NCBI GenBank assembly: GCA_025449115.1
Contig: JAHLKC010000068.1
Location: forward strand, 140,394 to 204,393
Direction of reading: 5' to 3'
Length of the DNA: 64,000 bases
DNA from: Chytridium lagenaria
Taxonomy: Eukaryota > Chytridiomycota > Chytridiomycetes > Chytridiales > Chytridiaceae
Position 1 is the first letter of the stretch, and the number at the start of each line of letters is the position of its first letter. This document shows, one piece after another, positions 35,882-64,000 of this stretch. Position numbers and translations under genes: made by a program. The notes under the pieces were generated by a model. The model saw nothing but the letters and a program-made list of their open reading frames with translations. It did not search any database and was not told the DNA's origin.

Positions 35882-38800
35882 GGGGCGGTTCAAACAAACA
35901 GAGGCAAAGAAAGGATAGGTATACACAAGAAAAACACGTATGTAAAATACACGAAAAATCAACAAGATAATGTGAGGGCCCGAAAAGGCACGCCATGAAC
36001 AAAGGTCGTGCTGAATAAATACGAATGAGACCGCTATGGTTCAAGAGGGCGGGAATAAATAAAATGGCCACAAATCAAGGGCGGCGACACGGAAAAGTAA
36101 ACAGTTTTTCAAAAAGCTTACGAAGATAAAAAAAACAACAAAACAAAACAAAACAAAACAAGGGAGGAAAAACAAGAGAAGGAGAGAGAGGGAGAGAGAG
36201 AGAGGGAGAGTGAGAGATAGAAAGGTATGAGTGTGATTTGTACATAAACAAGTGTCGACAACCGCACACACGACAAGACAGGGGCACGACGCGGTGGAAA
36301 AGCTCGTCATGTCGTTTGGTGATAAGCTTTCGAAACGGTCAGTTGGCGCTCAAACAATAGTTGGGTGGTGTGAGGTGTCGATGATAACGGCGGAGAAGGT
36401 TTTCTTTGGGTGGAGTAAAATGGAGGTGTCGAGTTTGATGGTTTGCGAAAGATTGAGGAGAAATTGATGGATAGTGAGTTTGGGTTGAGTGTCAATAAGC
36501 GGCGACGTAGATACCAGTTCGGGAAAGTAAGAGAGGGGTTAAAAGAATTGGGTAGGTGTGAGTTGGGTAGGTGTGAAAGAGAGTTAAAAAACAATCAACC
36601 ATCCTAAAGCCAAAGAGAGAAAACCCATAAGTAATAAATAGGACCACGTTACACCACCAGTCAAAGGCACCAAAGAATCTCCTGAAAAAATCTCCTTAGA
36701 AGCAAACATCCACCAAAAGAATAAAGAAATATGACTAAAATACCCCACAATAGACAGGGGATAACGAAGGGGAATTCCGACACAACCAAATCCTTCAAAA
36801 GAAAATCAATAAACTACAAATTCCCAATATCATCAAAATAAAAATAGAATGAACCCTTAAACAACGGAAAAAAGTCAAAGGATGCCCTAACGTCCAAAAA
36901 AAAAAAGAGAAGTTCTGGCCAAATTCTTCCTGGTCATCCTTCACCTAAGCTCCCCAAAAGTCCTCCCACCCGCACACTCCAAAGCAGCACGTCCAAACTC
37001 GCCAGCACCGCATCCCTGGCCAACATTTCCGAACCCAGCAGAACCCTGCGGCGGCAAAGCAAGAGATAAGGTATTGGTGCTATTCGGCACCACGCAGTAC
37101 GAAGATGTGCCAGAGAGCGAAGCAAAACGTATCATTGGGCGGGGACTTGGGAGGACAAAGTTGCAATATGCTGGTTCGAATCAACGGAGTGTTGCCCGGG
37201 AAACGGCAAGGCCAGGGCGTAATCCAATGGCGAAAGATCAGACAGCAACATGTCAAGGACACCATCGCCAACGTCTTGAGAAGGGCCGGGCAAGGACTCT
37301 GTTGCATTCAAGTTTGAAAGCGAGTTCATGCAGTTAACGAAGGCGGGGTCAATTCCATTTAATTTCCCTTGCGTGGGCTGCGGTTAAAGAAGGGAGATAG
37401 GTAACAATATGAGAGATATTAATTAAGGATTCTACGACACAACAAATAGTAAATAGGTACTTACGATAAAACTCTCCAACACAGCCTGAGGAACTTCCGC
37501 TGGCGTCGAAATGGCCCGCTTTTTCCTTCTGCAAGTAGCAAAGACGCGAAGCGAGATGTCGTCTTGTGCTGCAACTGCAACTTCTTGGTCCAAGCCCACC
37601 TCATCCTCTTCATCTACACACGGAGACCATGTCGATGACTGCCCTGGCGTAGAGACTCCACAAGAGACCATGCCAGAACGCTCTCCTCCCATCGTGCGAA
37701 CCTTCGGACCGCGCCGAGCAACCGCCTGAGCAATAGAGGAAGCCAGTAAAGGGGCTGGAGAACCACCGTGGTCACCGCTGATGTTCTGAGGCGACGAACC
37801 CCAAGACTGCCCAGGCAAAGGCACCAGCTTGGCGTCGAGTGTGGAGGGAGCCGGAGACCAGAAGGGTGGTGGAGGCGGGAACTGCATCACTGCACCTGGG
37901 AATGCCTGGAGGCTCTCTGCAGCCTGAGCGGCCTGTCTATCCATCGGTGTGTCTTGCTTGGGCGAAAGTGCCGGCGTGACATAGTGACTAGAAACGTCGA
38001 GCTTTGGCTTGGGGGCAACGGCGACCGAGGCAGGAATTTCGATAACACCCTCCATTGCAGAGTTAGCCCGAGGAGTAACTGGGTCTTGAACGCTCTTTGT
38101 AGCTTCAGTCACGCTAGTAGGAACGATCGAAAGACCAGGAAGGGACTCAAGTATCCCTTCCATTCCAGAAGATGGCTCCGAGACTCCCACGACGTCTTGA
38201 TTTCCCGCACCCCTCACAGCGCCCGGGAAAATAGGAGCCTTTTGCAAAATGAAACAGATTAGTTCAAATCACAGCTGGTGGCGAAATAGAATTACTTACC
38301 GACTGGTGAGAAGAGTCAAAAGGGATGAGGTCTGGCTGTTGCGCGTTTCCAGCTTAATGTCTGATTGCCGTCTTGCGCACAGGGTGGACCGCCAAGGGCC
38401 ACAGTCTCACAGTTGCTGATGCCCATACCGACGTCATTAATAGAAGACTGAGTCAAAAATAATAGATTTGAACGGTTAGTTTAAACGAAACAATAGCGCT
38501 GTATGAAGAATTAAATTAAGAAAAAACTCTTACCTGATGTTGTTGTGACAAAAGCATGGATAGAACACCATCAAGCTCATTTGAATGCTTAAGATAAAGA
38601 GCCTTCTCCTCTTTCATGGACTGGATGACCGCTTCCGCAGAAGACAGGTCGACGATCAGGCGCTCTGTTTCCTTCTTGATCTCATTGACGGAGGCAAGCT
38701 CAGCGACCAAACGCTGATTCTCGATTTGAATCTTCTCCAACTCACGGGACTGAGCCTGGATCTGACTCTTCAGGTTGGTCTCATTCTCCTGCAAGCTCTT

Positions 38801-41580
38801 CAGCTTGACAAGAATCCTGGGATCATTCTTGAAATACTTGGGCGAGGTTGAATCTCAACGGAGCGCGAGGTCAACGAATTGGTTTGACAGTCAATGGACG
38901 TGACGGACGCGGAAACCTGGCAGCCCGTTGAGTTGCACGTGACTGTCTCCGTTTGCACAGACGTGGATGGTGGTGCAGCAGTCTGAGCTCCAGAGGTAGC
39001 TGTGGCTGGTAAGCTGATCTGAGTAGCCACGGAACTTGCAGTGACGGCCGAATCACAGTCTTCAAGAGTCGACGTGCCAACATTTTCAGTCGTGACCGTT
39101 TCTCCAACCTTTTTATTGGCGGTGGATGTTGATGTTGACGTGCTCCTGTTCCTTTTGTTGATGGCAGGGGAGTTCTTCACCCTGAAATCGGGACAATTTC
39201 GGAATTTTCTTTCTTTGTCGGAAGTCAACCCTCCAAACATCCCCAAGAACCCAAGCTCCTGAGTCGGAGTGGAGCTTTCTTTCATACTCGAGTACTTGAG
39301 GCCGTTCAAACTCACAACCAGGTCATCGATGGAAGCATTCTCTGCTGGTGCAGGGGGATGGCGCGATTCTATCGCGTTGATTCCCACTGAGACCACCGTC
39401 GCCTCACTTTTAGCTTCAGCCTCAGCCTCAGAGTTTGCAGACTCAACAACGACAGCGCTGGAAGCTTGAGGAAGGACCGGCTCAGCGTTATCAGCCGTAA
39501 CTTCGGGAACGGTGACCTTAAGGGAGACGACATTGTTTGGCACCAGCTGAATCGCTGGGGTGACCTGGATCACCGCACCGTTGGAGAAGCCGGACTTTTC
39601 CATGGCAATGCTGACGCTGCCAGTATTTGAAGCGTCAACAACCGCATCACTCTCCAAAATCTCAGGCCGAGCAGTGGTAGTGACCGCACACTCGAGGTGG
39701 GAGCTTGGGGATGTAGTGGACCCTTGGGTCTCTGGTACAACGCTAGAGGATGCCGACTCGTCAGGCCTTTTTGAGGCCTCAGAAATTTTGTTCCGGAGTG
39801 ATAACCTTGACTTCCACATTAGAACCCTTGAACCCAGTCTCCACCTTCACTGGAGTCTTCAACGCTTCAGCGTTTTCTGTCTCCGCACGATAGTCCTCGC
39901 TTGAGGCTTCCTCAGGTTCAGTAGCTTCATTGCCGCCGGCACTTGTGACGTAGGAGAGGGGACTGGATTGTTGAGAACCGTCGACTATCTCAATTGGAGA
40001 AAGACCAATGTCGTTAACAACAACGTCCGTCTTCTGGAATTTTTCTCCATCCGACGTCTTTGAAGCCAGCACCGTCTCGGTGACGGTAACAGCCTTCTTT
40101 AAATCAGCAAGCTTTGATGGAGCGGCAGGACGGAAACCTCGAGAGACTACAGGAACATGTGACTTGGTTGATGCGATCCCCACTGATGCAGGTTGGAGGG
40201 CAGACCTGGCCTTGAGCGAAGAGGTTGCAAGAGGCTTCCTTACCGGTTCAGCTGTAACAATATGCTTAGGAGCTTCCGTTTTCACCGCTTTTCCCTCCTC
40301 TGCCGCCTCCTTCGATCGTATCACCTTATCGGCAACAAAGATCTTTGAAGGTACGGCAAGTTTCGAAAGGGAAGCCTTCGACGAAGCAGGCGGAGGGACA
40401 GCTTGATGCCTCATGGGAACGTTTGGCTTGAGGTTGGTGGACGGCATAGAAGCGGACTTGGCGGTCAGGACAGTCTTGGAGTGATGTGCGGCCATAGTCT
40501 CTTTAACAGGTGCGGCTGCACCAACTCTCTTCAAAGCATTTTCTCCCGACCCTTTCGGTCGATGTCGCTCGTCTTCTGAACCTTCCTCTCAACTGCCGAA
40601 GTACCAGCGCAAACGCCAACCACTTTCTCTTCAAGATGGGGTCGACCGGTGCTGCTCTGGGTCGGATTGGGGTGCTCCAAGTCTTTTCTGACGGTGCTGC
40701 AACATTATAGTTCCAGGCGTTCTTGAAGGGGGGTCGAAGTTCCAAAGCGTTTGCGGCTGATGACGAGGAAAGAGCGTTCTTGCGCTCGTCGGCCTTTGGA
40801 GGCGTCTCTTGCCTGTTCGCCCAGTTCTTCCTCGCCTCCTCCTTGGTAGGGTGCATCTGACCTCCTTCACCACCTTTGCGGGCCCTGCGCTTCTTGTGGA
40901 TGTGGGGAGAATGCTGGGTGTGGGTTTGGTGGTGCTGCTGCTGCGCAGGCGGGAGGGGAGAGGCAACTCTTGGCTGGATACTTTCCTGACCCGGCCGCAG
41001 TTTGTTTGCTGAAGACGAGGAGGTTGAATGCCCAATGTCTTACCGTCTGGTCGTTCTTTTAGAATCTGACGGGGGGCTTAGGGATTCCGGTGATGAACTC
41101 ATTGGGCTTTTGATCTTTCCCTTGTCGACGAGAGTGGTGAGAGCAATGGCTCTGTCGGCATGGAGTAATGGGCCAGTTTCTTCAAGTCAAATGCTCAGCA
41201 GCTTTCTCGCTCTCAATGGAATTCTCGACGGAGGGAACGGAATAGTTGACTCCATGGTAGGGTCTGCATGGGATCTGTGGTGATGACTGCGTTTGCAGAG
41301 TCCTTAAGGACGGGGTCTGTGACGGGGAAGACGTCTCCCCCGATCATTGTTTTCTCTCTGTATGTTGGGATACCGTTGAAAGCGAAGGTTGGAAAAAACG
41401 GAAAACTATTACGGGGGGAGCCAGCAGACTTTTTATCCAGAAAAATACCAACTGCGGATAGGTGGTCAGGCTGGACAGGTGGACGGAAAAGACTTTTGAG
41501 TGAGATGAAGCGGAAGTTGAACTGAAGGCATCGTCTTTGTATTTTTTTTTATTTTGATCTGACATGTGCAATGCATTTTT
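35882..41580. repeat. Left arm of large inverted repeat
   Basis: The reverse complement of this segment matches 58,225-64,000 nearly throughout, including coding sequence, introns, the untranslated tail and the GA/AAAAC microsatellites near 36,130-36,210. Similarity fades on the inner side at about 41,580, after the shared ATTTTGATCTGACAT block. The arms differ by scattered substitutions and many one-base homopolymer length differences. The outer limit is set only by the end of the window. Confidence 0.93.
36941..41347 (-). CDS. Unrecognised large protein, left-arm copy
   Basis: Same protein as the right-arm gene, transcribed outward. Start MIGGDVFPVTDP at 41,347; stop at 36,941 after GGRTFGELR. 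Order of visible parts: KPNEFIKGIPKLSRQILKE near the N-terminus; a basic His-rich stretch; a PTKEEARKNWANRQETPPK segment; a long Ala/Ser/Thr/Lys-rich low-complexity region; KYSSMKESSTPTQELGFLG; a coiled coil (LQENETNLKSQIQAQSRELE onward, about 38,520-38,810); then a Pro/Ser-rich tail (MQFPPPPPFWSP) with basic CRRKKRA. Introns lie near 38,440-38,530, 38,250-38,300 and 37,379-37,466. No catalytic domain recognised; a scaffold or RNA/cytoskeleton-associated role is speculation. This copy has frame breaks near 38,850, 40,540-40,720 and 37,126. Confidence 0.72.
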
Positions 41581-42073: not shown

Positions 42074-45000
42074 TCACACATGAATAATAACCACAAACCC
42101 TGCCGGCGTTCCAATCGCCACAATCCTGCCCTGAAAACTCGTTAAATTTCCCCTCAACGTCGCCGGCACCCACAACCTCCTCGTCCCATTCTCTTTCCGG
42201 TCCATCATCCATCCATCCTCCTGTAACACCCAAACCGTTGAAAACGCGCCTGGTCGAATCACATCCCCAGGAACAGGTGACCCATGTTTCTCCTCCGTCT
42301 CCGTCTCAGGTGTCTTAATAGCATCTCCAGTGAGGTTACTCACAGACAGCTTTTTGGCAACCGCCACACCGTTTACTGATACAACGGTAGGACGCCGGAA
42401 TAAAAGAGGGGAGCCTTGTCTCCTCGTTGACGAATCATGGAACGGCTCCTCTTCATCGTCATCAGGCATCCCACCAGAAGCCCCTCCATCAGTTAATCCA
42501 AGCATTTCAGCTTTCGCCACTCTCCTTGCGGCTTCCTCCCAACTTCCCACATTCAGCGAACGCGTTTCAATGACACGTACAAGCCTGCCAGTTTCCGCGT
42601 TCCACACGCGCACGGTCGAATCAGCACCTGCGGACGTGACAAACCGTCCATCGACGCTCACAGCTAGAGCGCGAACGGTATCCCCATGCCCGTCATCTTC
42701 CGCCGCAGCCGCGCGTAACGAAAGCGGCGAAAGCGGTGACGTAACATTAGCTGGTGTCCCGGCAGCTTTCGACGATAAAGCCGTTGGCAATAACATCTGT
42801 ACAGAAGTTGGTAACATCAAACCCCCAGAGTTCCGCGCTGGATCGCATTCCCATACCCTCACAGTGCGATCATCACTCCCCGAAACAATGCGTCTTCCAT
42901 CAGGTGACACCGCCACGCAATTCACGCTGTTCGTATGTCCCTCCAATATCTGCACACATCGACCCGTCTCCATCTCCCAAACCCTCACTGTGGTGTCTTT
43001 AGACCCAGACACGACCCATCGTCCATCCGGACTCACACAAACAGCATTGACAACGTTCGCATGTCCATCGAGAATACGTACGGCTTTTCCGCTATTCATA
43101 TCCCAAATCCTAACAGTCCGATCCTCTCCACACGACACAATCCACCGTCCATCAGGCCCAACCGCAACCCCACAAACTGCCCCCGTATGTCCCTTCAAAG
43201 TCCAAACGGTCTCCCCATTCTTCGCATCCTGCACCAAAACACTATCCGCTCCACCACCTAAAATCACAATTCTCCCACCATCAGGTGTCATAGCTAATCC
43301 ATTCACACCCCACGTCTTCCCTTTTGCGCTCCTCACACAACGTCCCGTCGCCGCATCCCACGTTTTTACCATGCCATCAGCACCCCCAGAGACAATCCAC
43401 CGTCCATCCGCACTACACGTCACATTCCACACCTGATCTCCGTGTCCCTCCAACGTTCGTGCCAGCATCCCTGTTTCAGCGTCAAACACACGGACAGCGC
43501 GATCGTGGCCACCACTGACGATCCAGCGACCATCCATGGATACGCAGACGGTTGAGACGGTCCGTGTGTGTGCGCGTAAGGTCCATAAGCAGGGATGCCA
43601 TTGTTCAGGGGTGCCACGGACGACTCTAGGGACGCGTCGGAATGATGGGGAGGACGAGGCGAAACGGTGGAGACGTGGAGAGTAGGTGCGGTAGAGGTGG
43701 GACGCGGGGGGTGAGAAGGGGAGGGCGGAGATGTAGATGTGGTAGGAGGAGGCTGTGAGGGGGTAATAGAAGTCTTGGAGGAAACGTTGAGCGTCTCGGA
43801 CTAGGTGTTTTGTTTGCGCTAGATCGAGAGGTGGGTTGGGGGAGGCTATAGATTGTTGGAGAAGCTTGGTGATAGATGCTGGGACGGGGCCAGAGTCGTC
43901 GGAGAGGGAGGCGGCGGTGAGGGAGGGAGAGGAATTAAGTGAAGAAGGTTTTGCTTTATTTGCAAGGGATGCAGCGGCTGTAGCGGCGTTGGCGAGGTTG
44001 CGTTGGAAAAAGGTCATGACGGAGGAAAGAGCCGTGGCGGGTTTGATGGAATGAAGGTACAGCGCGAGAGCGCGAAGAGAAATAAAGGCGGTGGAACCAA
44101 TGGATGACATCAGGAGAGATGTTCAAGCCATTCCAAAAGTTTTTCAGAACAGACGAGACAGGTGAGTTCTTCAACCGCCTTAAGGATTTTAGGATCCACT
44201 GCGGCAGCCATCGCAGCGGAGGCAGCGGCGGATTGGAGAGCTGGGGTACCGGGAGTTGCGGTGACCATTCCATTTGGGGCTGCAACGACGTCGGCTGCAG
44301 TAGGAGAATCTGATATCATTTGACCCAGAGCGAGAAGGTGAAAACACCAGTGTTTAATCGCATATCGGAGTTCATCAGATACTTTCCCCTGAAAACGGCC
44401 CTCCAGGTCTGGGATTTCAGCGTTAAGCCATGCAACAGGATCCTCAAGATCCAATGGGTTAGGTCGAAGGCCTGTCATGAGAAGAACCATGCAGCGAAGG
44501 GAAAGATCCGCCTCAGCCTTTGCGATGTTGATACGGAACCGCTCATCCACACATCGATCAGATGTTAAAAAGTCTTTAAAATCTGTATGAGAAAGTCGGA
44601 GGCGAGGTGAGGGCAGAGGGGCTGGGGTAAATCCGATGCCGTTCATGTTGGCGCTCGCGTTAACGGAAGTAAAATCAGATTCATCGCAAAATTCTACAAA
44701 ACTTGCAATTTTGTACAGTGTTCTTCTAGTGTCGACTAAGCTCATGTCAAGGAGTTTGGAGAGAACAGGGATGCTAATGGGTTCTTTGATGACGAGCATT
44801 GCGCCCACCACGCGTCGGAACATCTCAACCTCCGTGTAATCACCTGCTCCCAACCTGGACTCAAGGAGTCCATGGTAGACTTTATCCAGTCCAACTGGGA
44901 ACGTCTCGAGTGATGCCAAGAGCTGTGCAGGGCTGGTTGCAATGCCACCAGCAGTTCGAAGTGGTTCGAATGCGAGGTGAAGCCACAAAAATTGACCCAG

Positions 45001-47036
45001 AGACTTTCCCGTAAGGATAGCAGATGCCTCATGATAGTCATCTTCGGTGATAGCCGGCAAAATAGATCTAATAAGCGAGCCAGCGTAAGCAAATAGGTCT
45101 TTTCTCTGCATCATCCCAAACAACTCCACTTCCGCCGGTTTAAGAGGTGCAAGTTGCTCTTGAATGCCTTGATCCATTGCTGATGTAAAAATAAATCTAA
45201 CTTCTAACGGAAACTTATCCCATTCACCCACGATAGCATTAATAAGATCCTTTCTGGGTTCCACCGGCATCGCGTCAATCCCGTCAATAATAATAACAAG
45301 CGTATCTTTTCTCAATTCTCCAGCCTCAGCAGCAGCTACAAGTGGGTCTACCAATAACTTCCTAATCCTCTGCGGAGTTGACGTCTCTCTATCCGCCACA
45401 TCTACCGCATTCCCACAAACACTTAATAGCGTCTCCTTCATACTCTCCATCTCCAGCGCCAATCTGTACGCCAGGGTGTTAATGATGGTGGATGGAAGTA
45501 AGCGATCAGAATGATCAGGGCGGATCTGGAACCACGATAACCTCACATTTCTTGGTGGAGTGGTGCACCATCGAGCCATTGCAACAGACTTTCCGTTCCG
45601 AGGGTCCGACGAGCCATAAAGCTTTGTGAGCGATACGATGGTCTTTTTCAACCCAGCTAGAGAGTTGATCGTGAAGCCAGACTCGAGTGGCACGGTGGCA
45701 CTTTTCAGCAAGATGTTCCATTTCTTTGGCGTGGCCAAGAGGTTTTAGCCATACACGTAAAAGTTCGAGGCCCTTTGGGACAACTGGCTTTTGTTGGTTT
45801 TTGAAGAGAGTTGGGACGTGCGGGTATTGGGGAGCTAAGACGGAGGAAGGCGGAACCACGTCTTGACCTTGTGGGTGTTCCAGGGGGGGAGAAATGGGAA
45901 GGGTTGGAAGTGGTCGATAAACGGTTCAAAATTTCGGATGGAAGAAGTATAGAGGTTCCATCGGTAAACTTTGTTGAGAGCCGAGCCTTTGAGGGCGACG
46001 GCAGTTCGGAAGCTCCTGCTGCGACAAGGATGGACTTGAGGAGATCCTCCATGACGGCTTTCCATTCATCTGCATCCCTGTCAAACGTTTCGGCAAGTTG
46101 CAGACCAATATGCCCTGCGGTCAGAATCTCTGACCAAGACCGCTGAAGGCGCGATGTGATGACAGGGACAAAGGGTCGACGAATCTCGTCCGCGTAGAGC
46201 ATTTCCTTTTTGGAAATCGGATCATCCTATGCGGAAGAAGGTGTTTGAGTACGCAACCCAGCAATACATAATTATTACCTCATAGGATGGAGTGACGAGT
46301 GGGCAGAAGATGGCGCATTCAGAGATGAGAAACGGATCATACGGCTTGGTGTCTTCAGTAGCATCCACAGTTGCCACCTCAAGGTCCAGACTCGCCAGGG
46401 AAGCTCTGATTTGTTGGCAAGCTCATGATCCACAGGACTATTGAAAAGATGTCAGATGCCATGCACAAAATGTTCTGTCCCTATAAAAAGCAATCATCCA
46501 CTCACTTAAAACTCAGAAACACATCGTAACGAATATCCGGTGTTCCAACAGAGACTTCTTCATTCTCATATGGCGCTGCATGGAATGCGTCAGATTCCGT
46601 CTGAAGAACTAGAATGATCATGATGCCGAAACCTACCAGCAAGCTCGGATTCTTCGAGATCCTTCAACAGATGCGAGTCAGCAGTAGGGAGGGCTTCATC
46701 GTTTGCCGATGGCTCTGCCTGAAGGCGCCGCGATTGATGAGATGAGGAAGAGCTGATGATCCGCCTAAAAAAACCGATGGTAAAGGAATATTAGGGACAT
46801 CACGATGAAGACAGTTTGAATAGAAAGAGTTGATCACCATTCGGCATTGGAGCATCTGATATTGAATCTGTATGGTCGTGAATGTGGTAAGTAATAGCAG
46901 AGCCAAATGAAGACTGAGTACCTCTGTTGAAAATGAGAGAGAACTTTGCTTCAAGTGATGTTGATGCCGCAGATGGCTTTGGCCTTGGAGACGAGGCGGG
47001 TGACGATGAGAGGGATGACGGTGCGGCAGGTGCCAT
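42074..47036 (-). CDS. TIR-NACHT-WD40 STAND receptor (NLR-like)
   Basis: Three domains in order. TIR: exon 46,506-46,575 ends with IRYDVFLSFN (box 1), exon 46,279-46,437 has LEVATVDAT and ISECAIFCPLVTPSYE, and the exon from 46,226 gives SKKEMLYADE (candidate catalytic Glu) and RRPFVPVI (box 2). NACHT/STAND: KALWLVGPS then GKSVAMARW at about 45,590 (Walker A, two one-base breaks inside), DTLVIIIDGIDAMP (Walker B), VRFIFTSAM (sensor 1), then HTDFKDFLTS and a helical region. C-terminal WD40 propeller: seven clear repeats and a degenerate eighth (about 43,570-42,075), with repeated DGRWIVSGG. Frame break at 44,112 joins LEWLEHLS to MSSIGSTAF. Such proteins sense ligands through the repeats and signal through the N-terminal domain. 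N-terminal exons (46,637-46,764; 46,922-47,036) are tentative. Confidence 0.86.
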
Positions 47037-58108: not shown

Positions 58109-58445
58109 TAATTTTCTGTATCCTTTCTATCCTTTCTCCTTTGACCTTTTATTATTTCCGTCGTTTTTCACCGAGCAGCAACGATTTATGTTAGATAAAA
58201 TTTAGACACAAGACACGATTTCGCAAAAAAATGCATTACATATGTCAGATCAAAAACAAAATTACACGACGACGCCATCAGTTCAACTTCCGCTTCATCT
58301 CACTCAAAAGTCTTTTCCGTCCACCTGTCCAGCCTGTCCGCAGTTGGTATTTTTCTGGATAAAAAGTCTGCTGCTCCCTCCATAATAGTTTTCCGTTTTC
58401 CCAACTTTCTCTTTCAACGGTATCCCAACACAGTGAGAGAAGACA

Positions 58446-61400
58446 ATGATCGGGGGAGACGTCTTCCCCGTCACAGACCCCGTCCTTAAGGACTCTGCAA
58501 ACGCAGTCATCACCACAGACCCCCGTGCAGACCCTACCATGGAGTCAACTATTCCCGTTCCCTCCGTCGAGAATTCCATTGAGAGCGAGAAAGCTGCTGA
58601 GCATTTGACCTTTGAAGAAACTGGCCCCATTACCTCCATGCCCGACAGAGCCATTGCTCTCACCACTCCCGTCGACAAGGGAAAGATCAAAAAGCCCAAT
58701 GAGTTCATCAAAGGAATCCCTAAGCTCTCCCGTCAGATTTTAAAAGAACGACCAGACGGTAAGACATTGGCATTCAACACTCTCGTCTTCAGCAAACAAA
58801 CTGCGGCCGGGTCAGGAAAGTATCCAGCCAAGAGGTTGCCTCTTCCCCTCCCGCCTGCCGCCAGCAGCAGGCACCACCAAACCCACACCCAGCATTCTCC
58901 CCACATCCACAAGAAGCGCAGGGCCCGCAAAGGTGGTGAAGGAGGTCAGGATGCACCCTACCAAGGAGGAGGCGAGGAAGAACTGGGCGAACAGGCAAGA
59001 GACGCCTCCAAAGGCCGACGAGCGCAAGAACGCTCTTTCCTCGTCATCAGCCGCAAACGCTTTGGAACTTCGACCCCACTTCAAGAACGCCTGGAACTAT
59101 AATGTTGCAGCACCCGTCAGAAAAGGACTTGGAGCACCCCAAGTCCGACCCAGAGCAGCACCGGTCGACCCCATCCTTGAAGAGAAAGTGGTTGGCGTTT
59201 GCGCTGGTACTTCGGCAGTTGAGAGGAAGGTTCAGAAGACGAGCGACATCGACCGAAAGGGTCGGGAGAAAATGCTTTGAAGAGAGTTGGTGCAGCCGCA
59301 CCTGTTAAAGAGACTATGGCCGCACATCACTCCAAGACTGTCCTGACCGCCAAGTCCGCTTCTATGCCGTCCACCAACCTCAAGCCAAACGTTCCCATGA
59401 GGCATCAAGCTGTCCCTCCGCCTGCTTCGTCGAAGGCTTCCCTTTCGAAACTTGCCGTACCTTCAAAGATCTTTGTTGCCGATAAGGTGATACGATCGAA
59501 GGAGGCGGCAGAGGAGGGAAAAGCGGTGAAAACGGAAGCTCCTAAGCATATTGTTACAGCTGAACCGGTAAGGAAGCCTCTTGCAACCTCTTCGCTCAAG
59601 GCCAGGTCTGCCCTCCAACCTGCATCAGTGGGGATCGCATCAACCAAGTCACATGTTCCTGTAGTCTCTCGAGGTTTCCGTCCTGCCGCTCCATCAAAGC
59701 TTGCTGATTTAAAGAAGGCTGTTACCGTCACCGAGACGGTGCTGGCTTCAAAGACGTCGGATGGAGAAAAATTCCAGAAGACGGACGTTGTTGTTAACGA
59801 CATTGGTCTTTCTCCAATTGAGATAGTCGACGGTTCTCAACAATCCAGTCCCCTCTCCTACGTCACAAGTGCCGGCGGCAATGAAGCTACTGAACCTGAG
59901 GAAGCCTCAAGCGAGGACTATCGTGCGGAGACAGAAAACGCTGAAGCGTTGAAGACTCCAGTGAAGGTGGAGACTGGGTTCAAGGGTTCTAATGTGGAAG
60001 TCAAGGTTATCACTCCGGAACAAAATTCTGAGGCCTCAAAAAGGCCTGACGAGTCGGCATCCTCTAGCGTTGTACCAGAGACCCAAGGGTCCACTACATC
60101 CCCAAGCTCCCACCTCGAGTGTGCGGTCACTACCACTGCTCGGCCTGAGATTTTTCAGAGCGATGCGGTTTTTGACGCTTCAAATACTGGCAGCGTCAGC
60201 ATTGCCATGGAAAAAGTCCGGCTTCTCCAACGGTGCGGTGATCCAGGTCACCCCAGCGATTCAGCTGGTGCCAAACAATGTCGTCTCCCTTAAGGTCACC
60301 GTTCCCGAAGTTACGGCTGATAACGCTGAGCCGGTCCTTCCTCAAGCTTCCAGCGCTGTCGTTGTTGAGTCTGCAAACTCTGAGGCTGAGGCTGAAGCTA
60401 AAAGTGAGGCGACGGTGGTCTCAGTGGGAATCAACGCGATAGAATCGCGCCATCCCCTGCACCAGCAAGGAATGCTTCCATCGATGACCTGGTTGTGAGT
60501 TTGAACGGCCTCAAGTACTCGAGTATGAAGAAAGCTCCACTCCGACTCAGGAGCTTGGGTTCTTGGGGATTTTGGAGGGTTGACTTCCGACAAAGAAAGA
60601 AAATTCCGAAATTGTCCCGATTTCAGGGTGAAGAACCCCCCTGCCATCAACAAAAGGAACAAGAGCACGTCAACATCAACATCCACCGCCAATAAAAAGG
60701 TTGGAGAAACGGTCACGACTGAAAATGTTGGCACGTCGACTCCTTGAAGACTGTGATTCGGCCGTCACTGCAAGTTTCCGTGGCTACTCAGATCAGCTTA
60801 CCAGCCACAGCTACCTCTGGAGCTCAGACCGCTGCACCACCATCCACGTCTGTGCAAACGGAGACAGTCACGTGCAACTCAACGGGCTGCCAGGTTTCCG
60901 CGTCCATCACGTCCATTGACTGTCAAACCGATTCGTTGACCTCACGCTCCGTTGAGATTCAGACCTCGCCCAAGTATTTCAAGAATGATCCCAGGATTCT
61001 TGTCAAGCTGAAGAGCTTGCAGGAGAATGAGACCAACCTGAAGAGTCAGATCCAGGCTCAGTCCCGTGAGTTGGAGAAGATTCAAATCGAGAATCAGCGT
61101 TTGGTCGCCGAGCTTGCCTCCGTCAATGAGATCAAGAAGGAAACAGAGCGCCTGATCGTCGACCTGTCTTCTGCGGAAAGCGGTCATCCAGTCCATGAAA
61201 GAGGAGAAGGCTCTTTATCTTAAGCATTCAAATGAGCTTGATGGTGTTCTATCCATGCTTTTGTCACAACAACATCAGGTAAGAGTTTTTTCTTAGTTTA
61301 ATTCTTCATACAGCGCTATTGTTTCGTTTGAACTAACCGTTCAAATCTATTATTTTTGGCTCAGTCTTCTATTAATGATGTCGGTATGGGCATCAGCAAC

Positions 61401-62868
61401 TGTGAGACCGTGGCCCTTGACGGTCTACCCTGTGCGCAAGACGGCAATCAGACATTAAGAGCTGGAAACGCGCAACAGCCAGACCTCATCCCTTTGACTC
61501 TTCTCACCAGTCGGTAAGTAATTCTATTTCGCCACCAGCTGTGATTTGAACTAATCTGTTTCATTTTGCAAAAGGCTCCTATTTTCCCAGGCGCTGTGAG
61601 GGGTGCAGGAAATCAAGACGTCGTGGGAGTCTCGGAGCCATCTTCTGGAATGGAAGGGATACTTGAGTCCCTTCCTGGTCTTTCGATCGTTCCTACTAGC
61701 GTGACTGAAGCTACAAAGAGCGTTCAAGACCCAGTTACTCCTCGGGCTAACTCTGCAATGGAGGGTGTTATCGAAATTCCTGCCTCGGTCGCCGTTGCCC
61801 CCAAGCCAAAGCTCGACGTTTCTAGTCACTATGTCACGCCGGCACTTTCGCCCAAGCAAGACACACCGATGGATAGACAGGCCGCTCAGGCTGCAGAGAG
61901 CCTCCAGGCATTCCCAGGTGCAGTGATGCAGTTCCCGCCTCCACCACCCTTCTGGTCTCCGGCTCCCTCCACACTCGACGCCAAGCTGGTGCCTTTGCCT
62001 GGGCAGTCTTGGGGTTCGTCGCCTCAGAACATCAGCGGTGACCACGGTGGTTCTCCAGCCCCTTTACTGGCTTCCTCTATTGCTCAGGCGGTTGCTCGGC
62101 GCGGTCCGAAGGTTCGCACGATGGGAGGAGAGCGTTCTGGCATGGTCTCTTGTGGAGTCTCTACGCCAGGGCAGTCATCGACATGGTCTCCGTGTGTAGA
62201 TGAAGAGGATGAGGTGGGCTTGGACCAAGAAGTTGCAGTTGCAGCACAAGACGACATCTCGCTTCGCGTCTTTGCTACTTGCAGAAGGAAAAAGCGGGCC
62301 ATTTCGACGCCAGCGGAAGTTCCTCGGCTGTGTTGGAGAGTTTTATCGTAAGTACCTATTTACTATTTGTTGTGTCGTAGAATCCTTAATTAATATCTCT
62401 CATATTGTTACCTATCTCCCTTCTTTAACCGCAGCCCACGCAAGGGAAATTAAATGGAATTGACCCCGCCTTCGTTAACTGCATGAACTCGCTTTCAAAC
62501 TTGAATGCAACAGAGTCCTTGCCCGGCCCTTCTCAAGACTTGGCGATGGCGTCCTTGACATGTTGCTGTCTGATCTTTCGCCATTGGATTACGCCCTGGC
62601 CTTGCCGTTTCCCGGGCAACACTCCGTTGATTCGAACCAGCATATTGCAACTTTGTCCTCCCAAGTCCCGCCCAATGATACGTTTGCTTCGCTCTCTGGC
62701 ACATCTTCGTACTGCGTGGTGCCGAATAGCACCAATACCTTATCTCTTGCTTTGCCGCCGCAGGGTTCTGCTGGGTTCGGAAATGTTGGCCAGGGATGCG
62801 GTGCTGGCGAGTTTGGACGTGCTGCTTTGGAGTGTGCGGGTGGGAGGACTTTTGGGGAGCTTAGGTGA
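58446..62868 (+). CDS. Unrecognised large protein, right-arm copy
   Basis: Same protein as the left-arm gene, in outward orientation. Starts MIGGDVFPVTDP at 58,446 (alternative Met 58,542) and stops at 62,868. Corresponding parts: KPNEFIKGIPKLSRQILKE, PTKEEARKNWANRQETPPK, a low-complexity Ala/Ser/Lys region (59,300-60,400), coiled coil with SLQENETNLKSQIQAQ (about 61,010-61,200), and the tail with NDTFASLSGTSSYCVVPNS (here in the correct frame). Introns near 61,280-61,365, 61,515-61,575 and 62,349-62,434. Frame breaks near 58,950, 59,275, 60,214, 60,760 and 61,180 sit at different places from those of the left copy. Where one copy breaks, the other is usually open, so the shared ancestral frame is intact. 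Confidence 0.72.
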
Positions 62869-64000
62869 AGGATGACCAGGAAGAATTTGGCCAGAACTTC
62901 TCTTTTTTTTTTTTTGACGTTAGGGCATCCTTTGTTTTTCCGTTGTTTAAGGGTTCATTCTATTTTTATTTTGATGATATTGGGAATTTGTAGTTTATTG
63001 ATTTTCTTTTGAAGGATTTGGTTGTGTCGGAATTCCCCTTCGTTATCCCCTGTCTATTGTGGGGTATTTTAGTCATATTTCTTTATTCTTTTGGTGGATG
63101 TTTGCTTCTAAGGAGGATTTTTTCAGGAGATTCTTTGGTGCCTTTGACTGGTGGTGTAACGTGGTCCTATTATTACTTATGGGTTTTCTCTCTTTGGCTT
63201 TAGGATGGTTGATTGTTTTTTAACTCTCTTCACACCTACCCAACTCACACCTACCCAATTCTTTTAACCCCTCTCTTACTTTCCCGAACTGGTATCTACG
63301 TCGCCGCTTATTGACACTCAACCCAAACTCACTATCCATCAATTTCTCCTAATCTTTCGCAAACCATCAAACTCGACAACCTCCATTTTACTCACCCAAA
63401 GAAAACCTTCTCCGCCGTTATCATCGACACCTCACACCACCCAACTATTGTTTGAGCGCCAACTGACCGTTTCGAAAGCTTATCACCAAACGACATGACG
63501 AGCTTTTCCACCGCGTCGTGCCCCTGTCTTGTCGTGTGTGCGGTTGTCGACACTTGTTTATGTACAAATCACACTCATACCTTTCTATCTCTCACTCCCT
63601 CTCTCTCTCTCTCCCTCTCTCTCCTTCTCTTGTTTTTCCTCCCTTGTTTTGTTTTGTTTTGTTTTGTTGTTTTTTTTATCTTCGTAAGCTTTTTGAAAAC
63701 TGTTTACTTTTCCGTGTCCGCCCTTGATTTGTGGCCATTTTATTTATTCCCGCCCTCTTGAACCATAGCGGTCTCATTCGTATTTATTCAGCACGACCTT
63801 TGTTCATGGCGTCTTTTCGGGCCCTCACATTATCTTGTTGATTTTTCGTGTATTTTACATACGTGTTTTTCTTGTGTATACCTATCCTTTCTTTGCCTCT
63901 GTTTTGATCCCGCCCAGAGGCCTCGTGCATTACGTTTATGCTTCCCTTTCTTATTGTTTATACTCTGTTTTCTTTGCCTCTGTTTGTTTTGAACCGCCCC
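62869..64000. other. 3' flank of the right-arm gene, within the arm
   Basis: Mirrors 35,882-36,940. Contains TC-rich and TTTTG microsatellites (about 63,590-63,672). An 88-residue open frame (63,495-63,761) exists in both arms, but its Ser/Leu/Phe-rich composition follows the microsatellite and I do not call it a gene. Confidence 0.55.

Follow-up and report, generated by a model that had tools for sequence, protein, structure and literature searches.

Gene layout

The window, that is, the whole stretch of 64,000 nucleotides analysed, belongs to the chytrid Chytridium lagenaria (assembly GCA_025449115.1, 41.9 Mb in 356 contigs; contig JAHLKC010000068.1, positions 140,394 to 204,393 of the forward strand). 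Its minus strand contains, from 47036 to 42074, a gene that joins a TIR domain, a NACHT NTPase and a WD40 propeller in this order. The layout was obtained from open reading frames and their translation, and by comparison with two proteins of other chytrids, P0001 (Phlyctochytrium planicorne, 1481 amino acids) and P0002 (P. bullatum, 1122 amino acids), and with three TIR genes of the same genome, here called TIR-Sel1-type genes (L010, L011 and L013).

42074..47036, minus strand: whole TIR-NACHT-WD40 gene, ATG at 47036, stop codon at 42074-42076 (open reading frames and translation)
46922..47036, minus strand: proposed exon 1, N-terminal extension (...LEAKFSLIFNR) resembling P0001 residues 2-15 (weak tblastn match, E 2.2)
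46868-46921 and 46765-46837, minus strand: putative introns around the proposed exon 2 (GT/AG signals)
46838..46867, minus strand: small proposed exon 2, SISDAPMPN (resemblance to P0001, GT/AG signals)
46506..46764, minus strand: putative exon or exons to the end of TIR box 1 (YDVFLSF, 46508-46528), with a possible frame change at about 46.73 kb
46029..46534, minus strand: TIR domain, IRYDVFLSF to DLLKSI, exons plus two introns (TIR_2; hhalign to paralog TIRs, 97.8%)
46438..46505, minus strand: TIR intron A, immediately following box 1, in phase 2 (same alignment column and phase in L010, L011 and L013)
46279..46437, minus strand: middle exon of the TIR, changing frame near 46.42 kb (translation and tblastn with P0001)
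46227..46278, minus strand: TIR intron B, in phase 0 and five codons ahead of KKE (same alignment column and phase in L010, L011 and L013, in L011 by deduction)
46203..46205, minus strand: codon of the candidate catalytic Glu, KKE (alignments)
45805..46028, minus strand: Ser/Pro-rich linker that continues the TIR frame until a change at about 45.80 kb (matches the P0001 linker)
45181..45606, minus strand: NACHT NTPase (NPHP3_N, Pfam E 9e-7)
43589..45180, minus strand: region between NACHT and propeller, probably winged-helix and helical, changing frame near 44.12 kb (alignment to P0001 and P0002)
42569..43588, minus strand: seven-bladed WD40 propeller (WD40, E 2e-70)
42077..42568, minus strand: conserved C-terminal segment ending in VAIGTPAGFVVIIHV (60% identity with P0001)

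Upstream of 46.53 kb the exons are tentative, as is the junction at about 46.60 kb.

Domain composition

Pfam hmmscan placed NPHP3_N, a family of the NACHT group, in 44113-45744 (E 9e-7; 29.7 bits, above the cut-off of 24.8) and WD40 in 42077-44119 (E 2e-70). The TIR stretch of P0001 matched TIR_2 above the 28-bit cut-off (E 4.5e-9, 37.3 bits). The joined TIR exons of the window gene matched TIR_2, below its cut-off, as their sole Pfam family, while a TIR exon piece taken alone gave no Pfam match; a HET domain was not found in this part. The original prediction of a TIR-NACHT-WD40 protein in a fungal genome is thus borne out, for NACHT and WD40 by the window itself and for TIR through P0001 and the paralogs. 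Its motifs lie on the minus strand where it had placed them (YDVFLSF 46528-46508, SKKEMLYADE 46214-46185 and RRPFVPVI 46181-46158), and of the seven to eight blades it allowed for, the count gives seven and not eight, with the conserved C-terminal segment following them.

The Walker A motif, at about 45.58-45.61 kb, is interrupted by a frame change in the assembly and is intact in P0001 and P0002. Walker B (LVIIIDGID) is found in the window within 45268-45300, and in P0001 both motifs are intact. A Pfam scan of the whole P0001 protein gave WD40-like families only among the best 25 of 62. With PADLOC the NACHT and TIR exon pieces of the window were unmatched and P0001 matched one model, via the propeller. 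The AlphaFold model of P0002 had an overall predicted local distance difference test score (pLDDT) of 41.7, with blocks at or above 70 confined to the propeller.

Frame breaks and assembly quality

The original prediction had deduced indels from the letters alone, and the assembly does contain them: compared with P0001, the coding sequence changes frame in at least four places, at about 45.80, 45.60 and 44.12 kb by tblastn and at about 46.42 kb by its translated frames. At the first three, adjacent tblastn runs overlap or sit 8 bases apart; at the fourth, the TIR middle exon matches P0001 in two alternating frames. An additional break at about 46.73 kb is possible, which alternative splice sites could avoid; the frame shift between 46279 and 46226 is intron B and not a break. 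An intron was also considered as the cause of the frame change in the linker, and is unneeded, as P0001 shows the TIR frame continuing to about 45.80 kb.

Similar disturbances are found elsewhere in the assembly. HSP70 matches change frame in three places, at which adjoining matches share 7 or 1 bases or are separated by 2; some of the HSP70 matches contain in-frame stops. Between two inverted 5.7-kb copies in the window a MAFFT alignment shows 44 indels, of which 34 are single bases, against 73 substitutions; BLAST puts the difference at 52 gap openings plus 50 mismatches. The coordinates of the open reading frames show each copy to be open where its partner is broken. The frame breaks are therefore most likely assembly noise. 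The inverted duplication itself (35896-41580 and 58227-63904, 98% identity, the second copy at the contig end) could reflect either an error of the assembly or a recent duplication event.

Relatives in other organisms

The protein search was made with a query joined by X at the breaks, beginning at about 46.60 kb and switching frame too early in the linker. Among the matches listed, 2 of 40 proteins were clear relatives, P0001 and P0002 (best 7994 candidates scored), so that the closest proteins listed belong to the chytrid genus Phlyctochytrium. P0001 shows 54% identity across 99% of the query and has the identical order of TIR, NACHT and WD40 in a single frame; P0002 shows 58% identity across 76%. 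Their sources call both of them POC1 centriolar protein A. The remaining 38 proteins cover 10-31% of the query. Searches with regions of P0001 returned, among the matches listed, only P0001 and P0002 for residues 80-880 and only P0001 for residues 76-222; candidates were proteins sharing 5-residue words (best 7992 scored for 80-880), and absence is accordingly weak evidence. The NACHT-WD40 part of P0001 matched a Colletotrichum NACHT-WD40 protein, P0023, with BLASTP 3e-29, partly from the WD40 repeats.

One of the more distant proteins, P0013 (1401 amino acids), carries TIR_2, NPHP3_N and WD40, each above its cut-off and in the order of the window gene. Its identity is 24% over 23% of the query and its TIR matches prokaryotic defence TIR models. 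No relatives of P0013 were found in a scan of genome contigs. P0013 probably represents an independent joining of the same modules.

Conservation of the propeller

The identity between the window protein and P0001 is highest in the propeller (77%), followed by the C-terminal segment (60%), the helical part (54%), the NACHT domain with the sequence following it (52%) and the TIR domain (46%); the value of 37% for the linker is lowered by the partly wrong frame in the query. Blades within the window protein share a mean identity of 46% and at most 62%, while orthologous blades share 64-93% between the window protein and P0001 and 55-83% between the window protein and P0002, a comparison made on these three sequences. 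The strong internal conservation of WD40 repeats that characterizes the HNWD type was not found in the window protein.

TIR genes and NACHT loci in the same genome

A scan of the genome with TIR_2 (E <= 0.01) gave five further places but not the window gene itself; three of the five exceed the cut-off. In the TIR-Sel1-type genes the Sel1 repeats are identified by Pfam in L010 and L013 and by eye, from matching repeat sequence, in L011. All three share with the window gene intron A (phase 2, after box 1) and intron B, which lies in phase 0 five codons upstream of KKE. The match is clear in L010; in L011 and L013 these exons have frame changes too, and the intron B assigned to L011, 42 bases and stop-free, is deduced from the other genes. 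Outside this group, L009 has an intron that comes near position A without coinciding with it, and L012 has a different intron layout.

Aligned by hhalign, the two NLR (NOD-like receptor) TIRs, those of the window gene and P0001, match two Sel1-type TIRs over 110 columns (probability 97.8%), and the KKE blocks coincide in this alignment. The profile of Sel1-type TIRs gave seven matches in the Protein Data Bank (PDB) at E <= 1, all seven to SARM1 chains (E 0.006 to 0.037). From the shared introns and the profile matches, common descent of NLR and Sel1-type TIRs within the fungus appears more likely than a separate gain from bacteria.

A TIR of the window type was found within about 5 kb of none of the eight other loci above the NPHP3_N cut-off, using a four-row profile that a more diverged TIR may escape. 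One of the eight, L037, is a helicase by Pfam. L031, L032 and L033 (contigs C76, C35 and C8) are NACHT-group loci with WD40 repeats nearby and no TIR of the window type. L012 (C25:108001-118000) combines a TIR-like start (TIR_2 24.1 bits in one exon, below the cut-off) with ankyrin repeats. L009 (C36:97001-107000) is a TIR gene with TIR_2 above the cut-off and C-terminal pieces that gave no Pfam match above the cut-off. On the same contig, long open stretches (L010:6148-7892 and L011:1-2328) that separate two TIR-Sel1-type genes encode a short repeat of the ADKPAEHGSARGSVV type. The sole HET-domain match found in the genome is at L036:3572-4735 (C89; E 4.2e-7).

Proposed function and alternative explanations

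The three domains, their order, the single-frame chytrid relative with its Walker motifs and the kept Glu are established at the level of sequence comparison. On this basis we hold, with moderate confidence, that the gene encodes a STAND (signal transduction ATPase with numerous domains) or NLR receptor of the fungal NACHT-WD40 group with TIR as N-terminal output. At rest the WD40 propeller would hold the ATP-dependent NACHT switch closed. A ligand bound at the propeller would lead the NACHT domains to form a ring, by which several TIR domains would be brought together. The assembled TIRs could then act in one of two ways, by cleaving NAD+ or a related nucleotide via the kept Glu or by recruiting further TIR proteins; the outcome would be arrest of cell growth or death. 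Because the propeller is the best conserved part in the few sequences compared, a fast-changing strain marker is a less likely ligand than a conserved component of the cell or a guarded self protein.

Several results weigh against this reading. The joined TIR exons of the window gene (with X at the break) reach E 5.8e-5 and 24.0 bits with TIR_2, below the 28-bit cut-off that the TIR of P0001 exceeds, and the TIR assignment therefore rests on the relative and the paralogs. Among the matches listed, the full architecture is found as an ortholog in P0001 only, itself a predicted model, and the model of P0002 begins inside the NACHT domain and is without TIR, either by loss or because the gene model is too short. 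AlphaFold gave an unusable model for 137 residues of the P0001 TIR (pLDDT 41.1, predicted template modelling score 0.31). A profile search of the PDB with the window and P0001 TIRs was headed not by TIRs but by 13 designed SAKe proteins, and gave only weak matches to TIRAP (from E 0.56) and a flax TIR (E 1.4), below an IglF entry. The SAKe proteins were discounted as candidates, the match being a stretch of 20 residues.

The remaining objections concern the enzyme. Both the BB loop and an aromatic residue at Glu-4 are important for NAD cleavage by TIRs. The signature of the loop (D...G) is unrecognisable in the window and P0001 TIRs, and the aromatic residue is absent, with I in the window and T in P0001 at the place of W in SARM1; this pairing is by count from the Glu only, as HMMER places the W of SARM1 in an insertion. 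The candidate Glu of KKE, which the original prediction had taken as possibly catalytic, is kept in the window, in P0001 and in all three TIR-Sel1-type paralogs, and aligns with the KE pair of SARM1 through the paralog profile. NAD cleavage by the window TIR is thus possible and should not be assumed.

The same receptor could also work with a non-enzymatic TIR, where the NACHT domains build a scaffold of TIRs; separate TIR proteins, perhaps the TIR-Sel1 proteins of the genome, would be drawn to it by TIR-TIR contact and would be the ones that act. The altered pocket of the NLR TIR would fit such a role, as would the fact that two Sel1-type TIRs retain a VWMD..xM.G BB loop and that the Sel1-type genes, having both introns of the NLR TIR, are close kin. 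A mere scaffold, however, need not retain the Glu that the window and P0001 keep, and the Sel1-type TIRs are likewise non-aromatic at Glu-4, where they carry N. We regard this explanation as possible, if somewhat unlikely. A scenario that goes further would have a conserved chytrid TIR-NLR sense a conserved self component by its slow-changing propeller and signal by recruiting TIR-Sel1 partners whose TIR exons derive, like its own, from one ancestral TIR gene with two introns; this scenario is speculative and on the whole doubtful, and would, if true, mean that early fungi had a sensor-and-executor TIR pathway of their own.

Three further explanations were considered for the gene as a whole. 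Four or more frame changes in 5 kb could mean a decaying copy, with genuine breaks and a gene that is dead in this strain, but the HSP70 matches change frame as well, the inverted copies are rich in indels and open where the partner is broken, and the pieces between the breaks still match P0001 at 40-62% (tblastn); decay is quite improbable. Still less probable is that the TIR exons are a separate neighbouring gene, fused by gene prediction. The start of the P0002 model within the NACHT domain would agree with this, but one stop-free piece (46226 to about 45.80 kb) contains both the TIR Glu and the linker, and in P0001 these parts form a single model whose linker sequence matches. Lastly, the database name of P0001 and P0002 suggests a WD40 protein with a structural role, like POC1 of the centriole. 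POC1 is not known to have NACHT-type or TIR domains, and this identity is hardly credible in view of the NPHP3_N match in the window and the TIR_2 match in P0001.

Comparison with known systems

TIR receptors are central to the immunity of plants, animals and bacteria. The conserved receptor proposed here, kept in at least two chytrids and accompanied by intron-sharing TIR-Sel1 kin, offers material for asking if genuine TIR immune signalling existed in early fungi and was replaced later. The shared TIR introns and the conserved propeller are the more interesting points of the gene.

In the available parts of the literature, studied fungal receptors mostly use the TIR-related HET domain according to reviews, and HET domains are treated as TIR-like (PMC12881547). 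TIR in fungi is mentioned once in the available text of PMC7075850, and no NLRs were found in chytrids in 2014 as far as the available text of PMC4986451 goes. TIR is reported in NLRs of plants, bacteria and Chytridiomycota in the available part of PMC9815663, with TIR-like effectors added in Pezizomycotina. The original prediction that TIR is rare on fungal NLRs is therefore fair, but the combination is not new: TIR-bearing chytrid NLRs are already known as a kind, and this gene is a new example. Searches for literature on TIR with Sel1 in fungi or chytrids, and on TIR NOD-like receptors in early-diverging fungi, found nothing, with thin coverage of subscription journals.

The chytrid TIR-NLRs of PMC9815663 have an N-terminal TIR on an NLR, as here, and may include the present family. 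HET-E, HET-D and HET-R, the HNWD proteins of Podospora, likewise have an N-terminal TIR-related effector followed by NACHT and WD40 in the published accounts available. They differ in carrying HET where the window gene has TIR, and in their repeats, which in the same accounts are strongly conserved internally and evolve concertedly, whereas the window blades are only 46% alike on average; the conserved propeller thus contrasts with the concertedly evolving repeats of allorecognition receptors. P0001 agrees in domain order and Glu, has a single open frame and a TIR 46% identical to that of the window. The TIR-Sel1-type genes share the TIR subgroup and both introns, but Sel1 repeats replace NACHT and WD40, and two of their TIRs keep the BB loop that the window TIR does not. 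P0013 has the same module order with low identity and a TIR of the prokaryotic defence type. SARM1 shares the position of the TIR Glu and differs in the residues around it. SARM1 and the plant TIR-NLRs (TNLs) carry the TIR on an oligomerising platform, as proposed here, with different partner domains.

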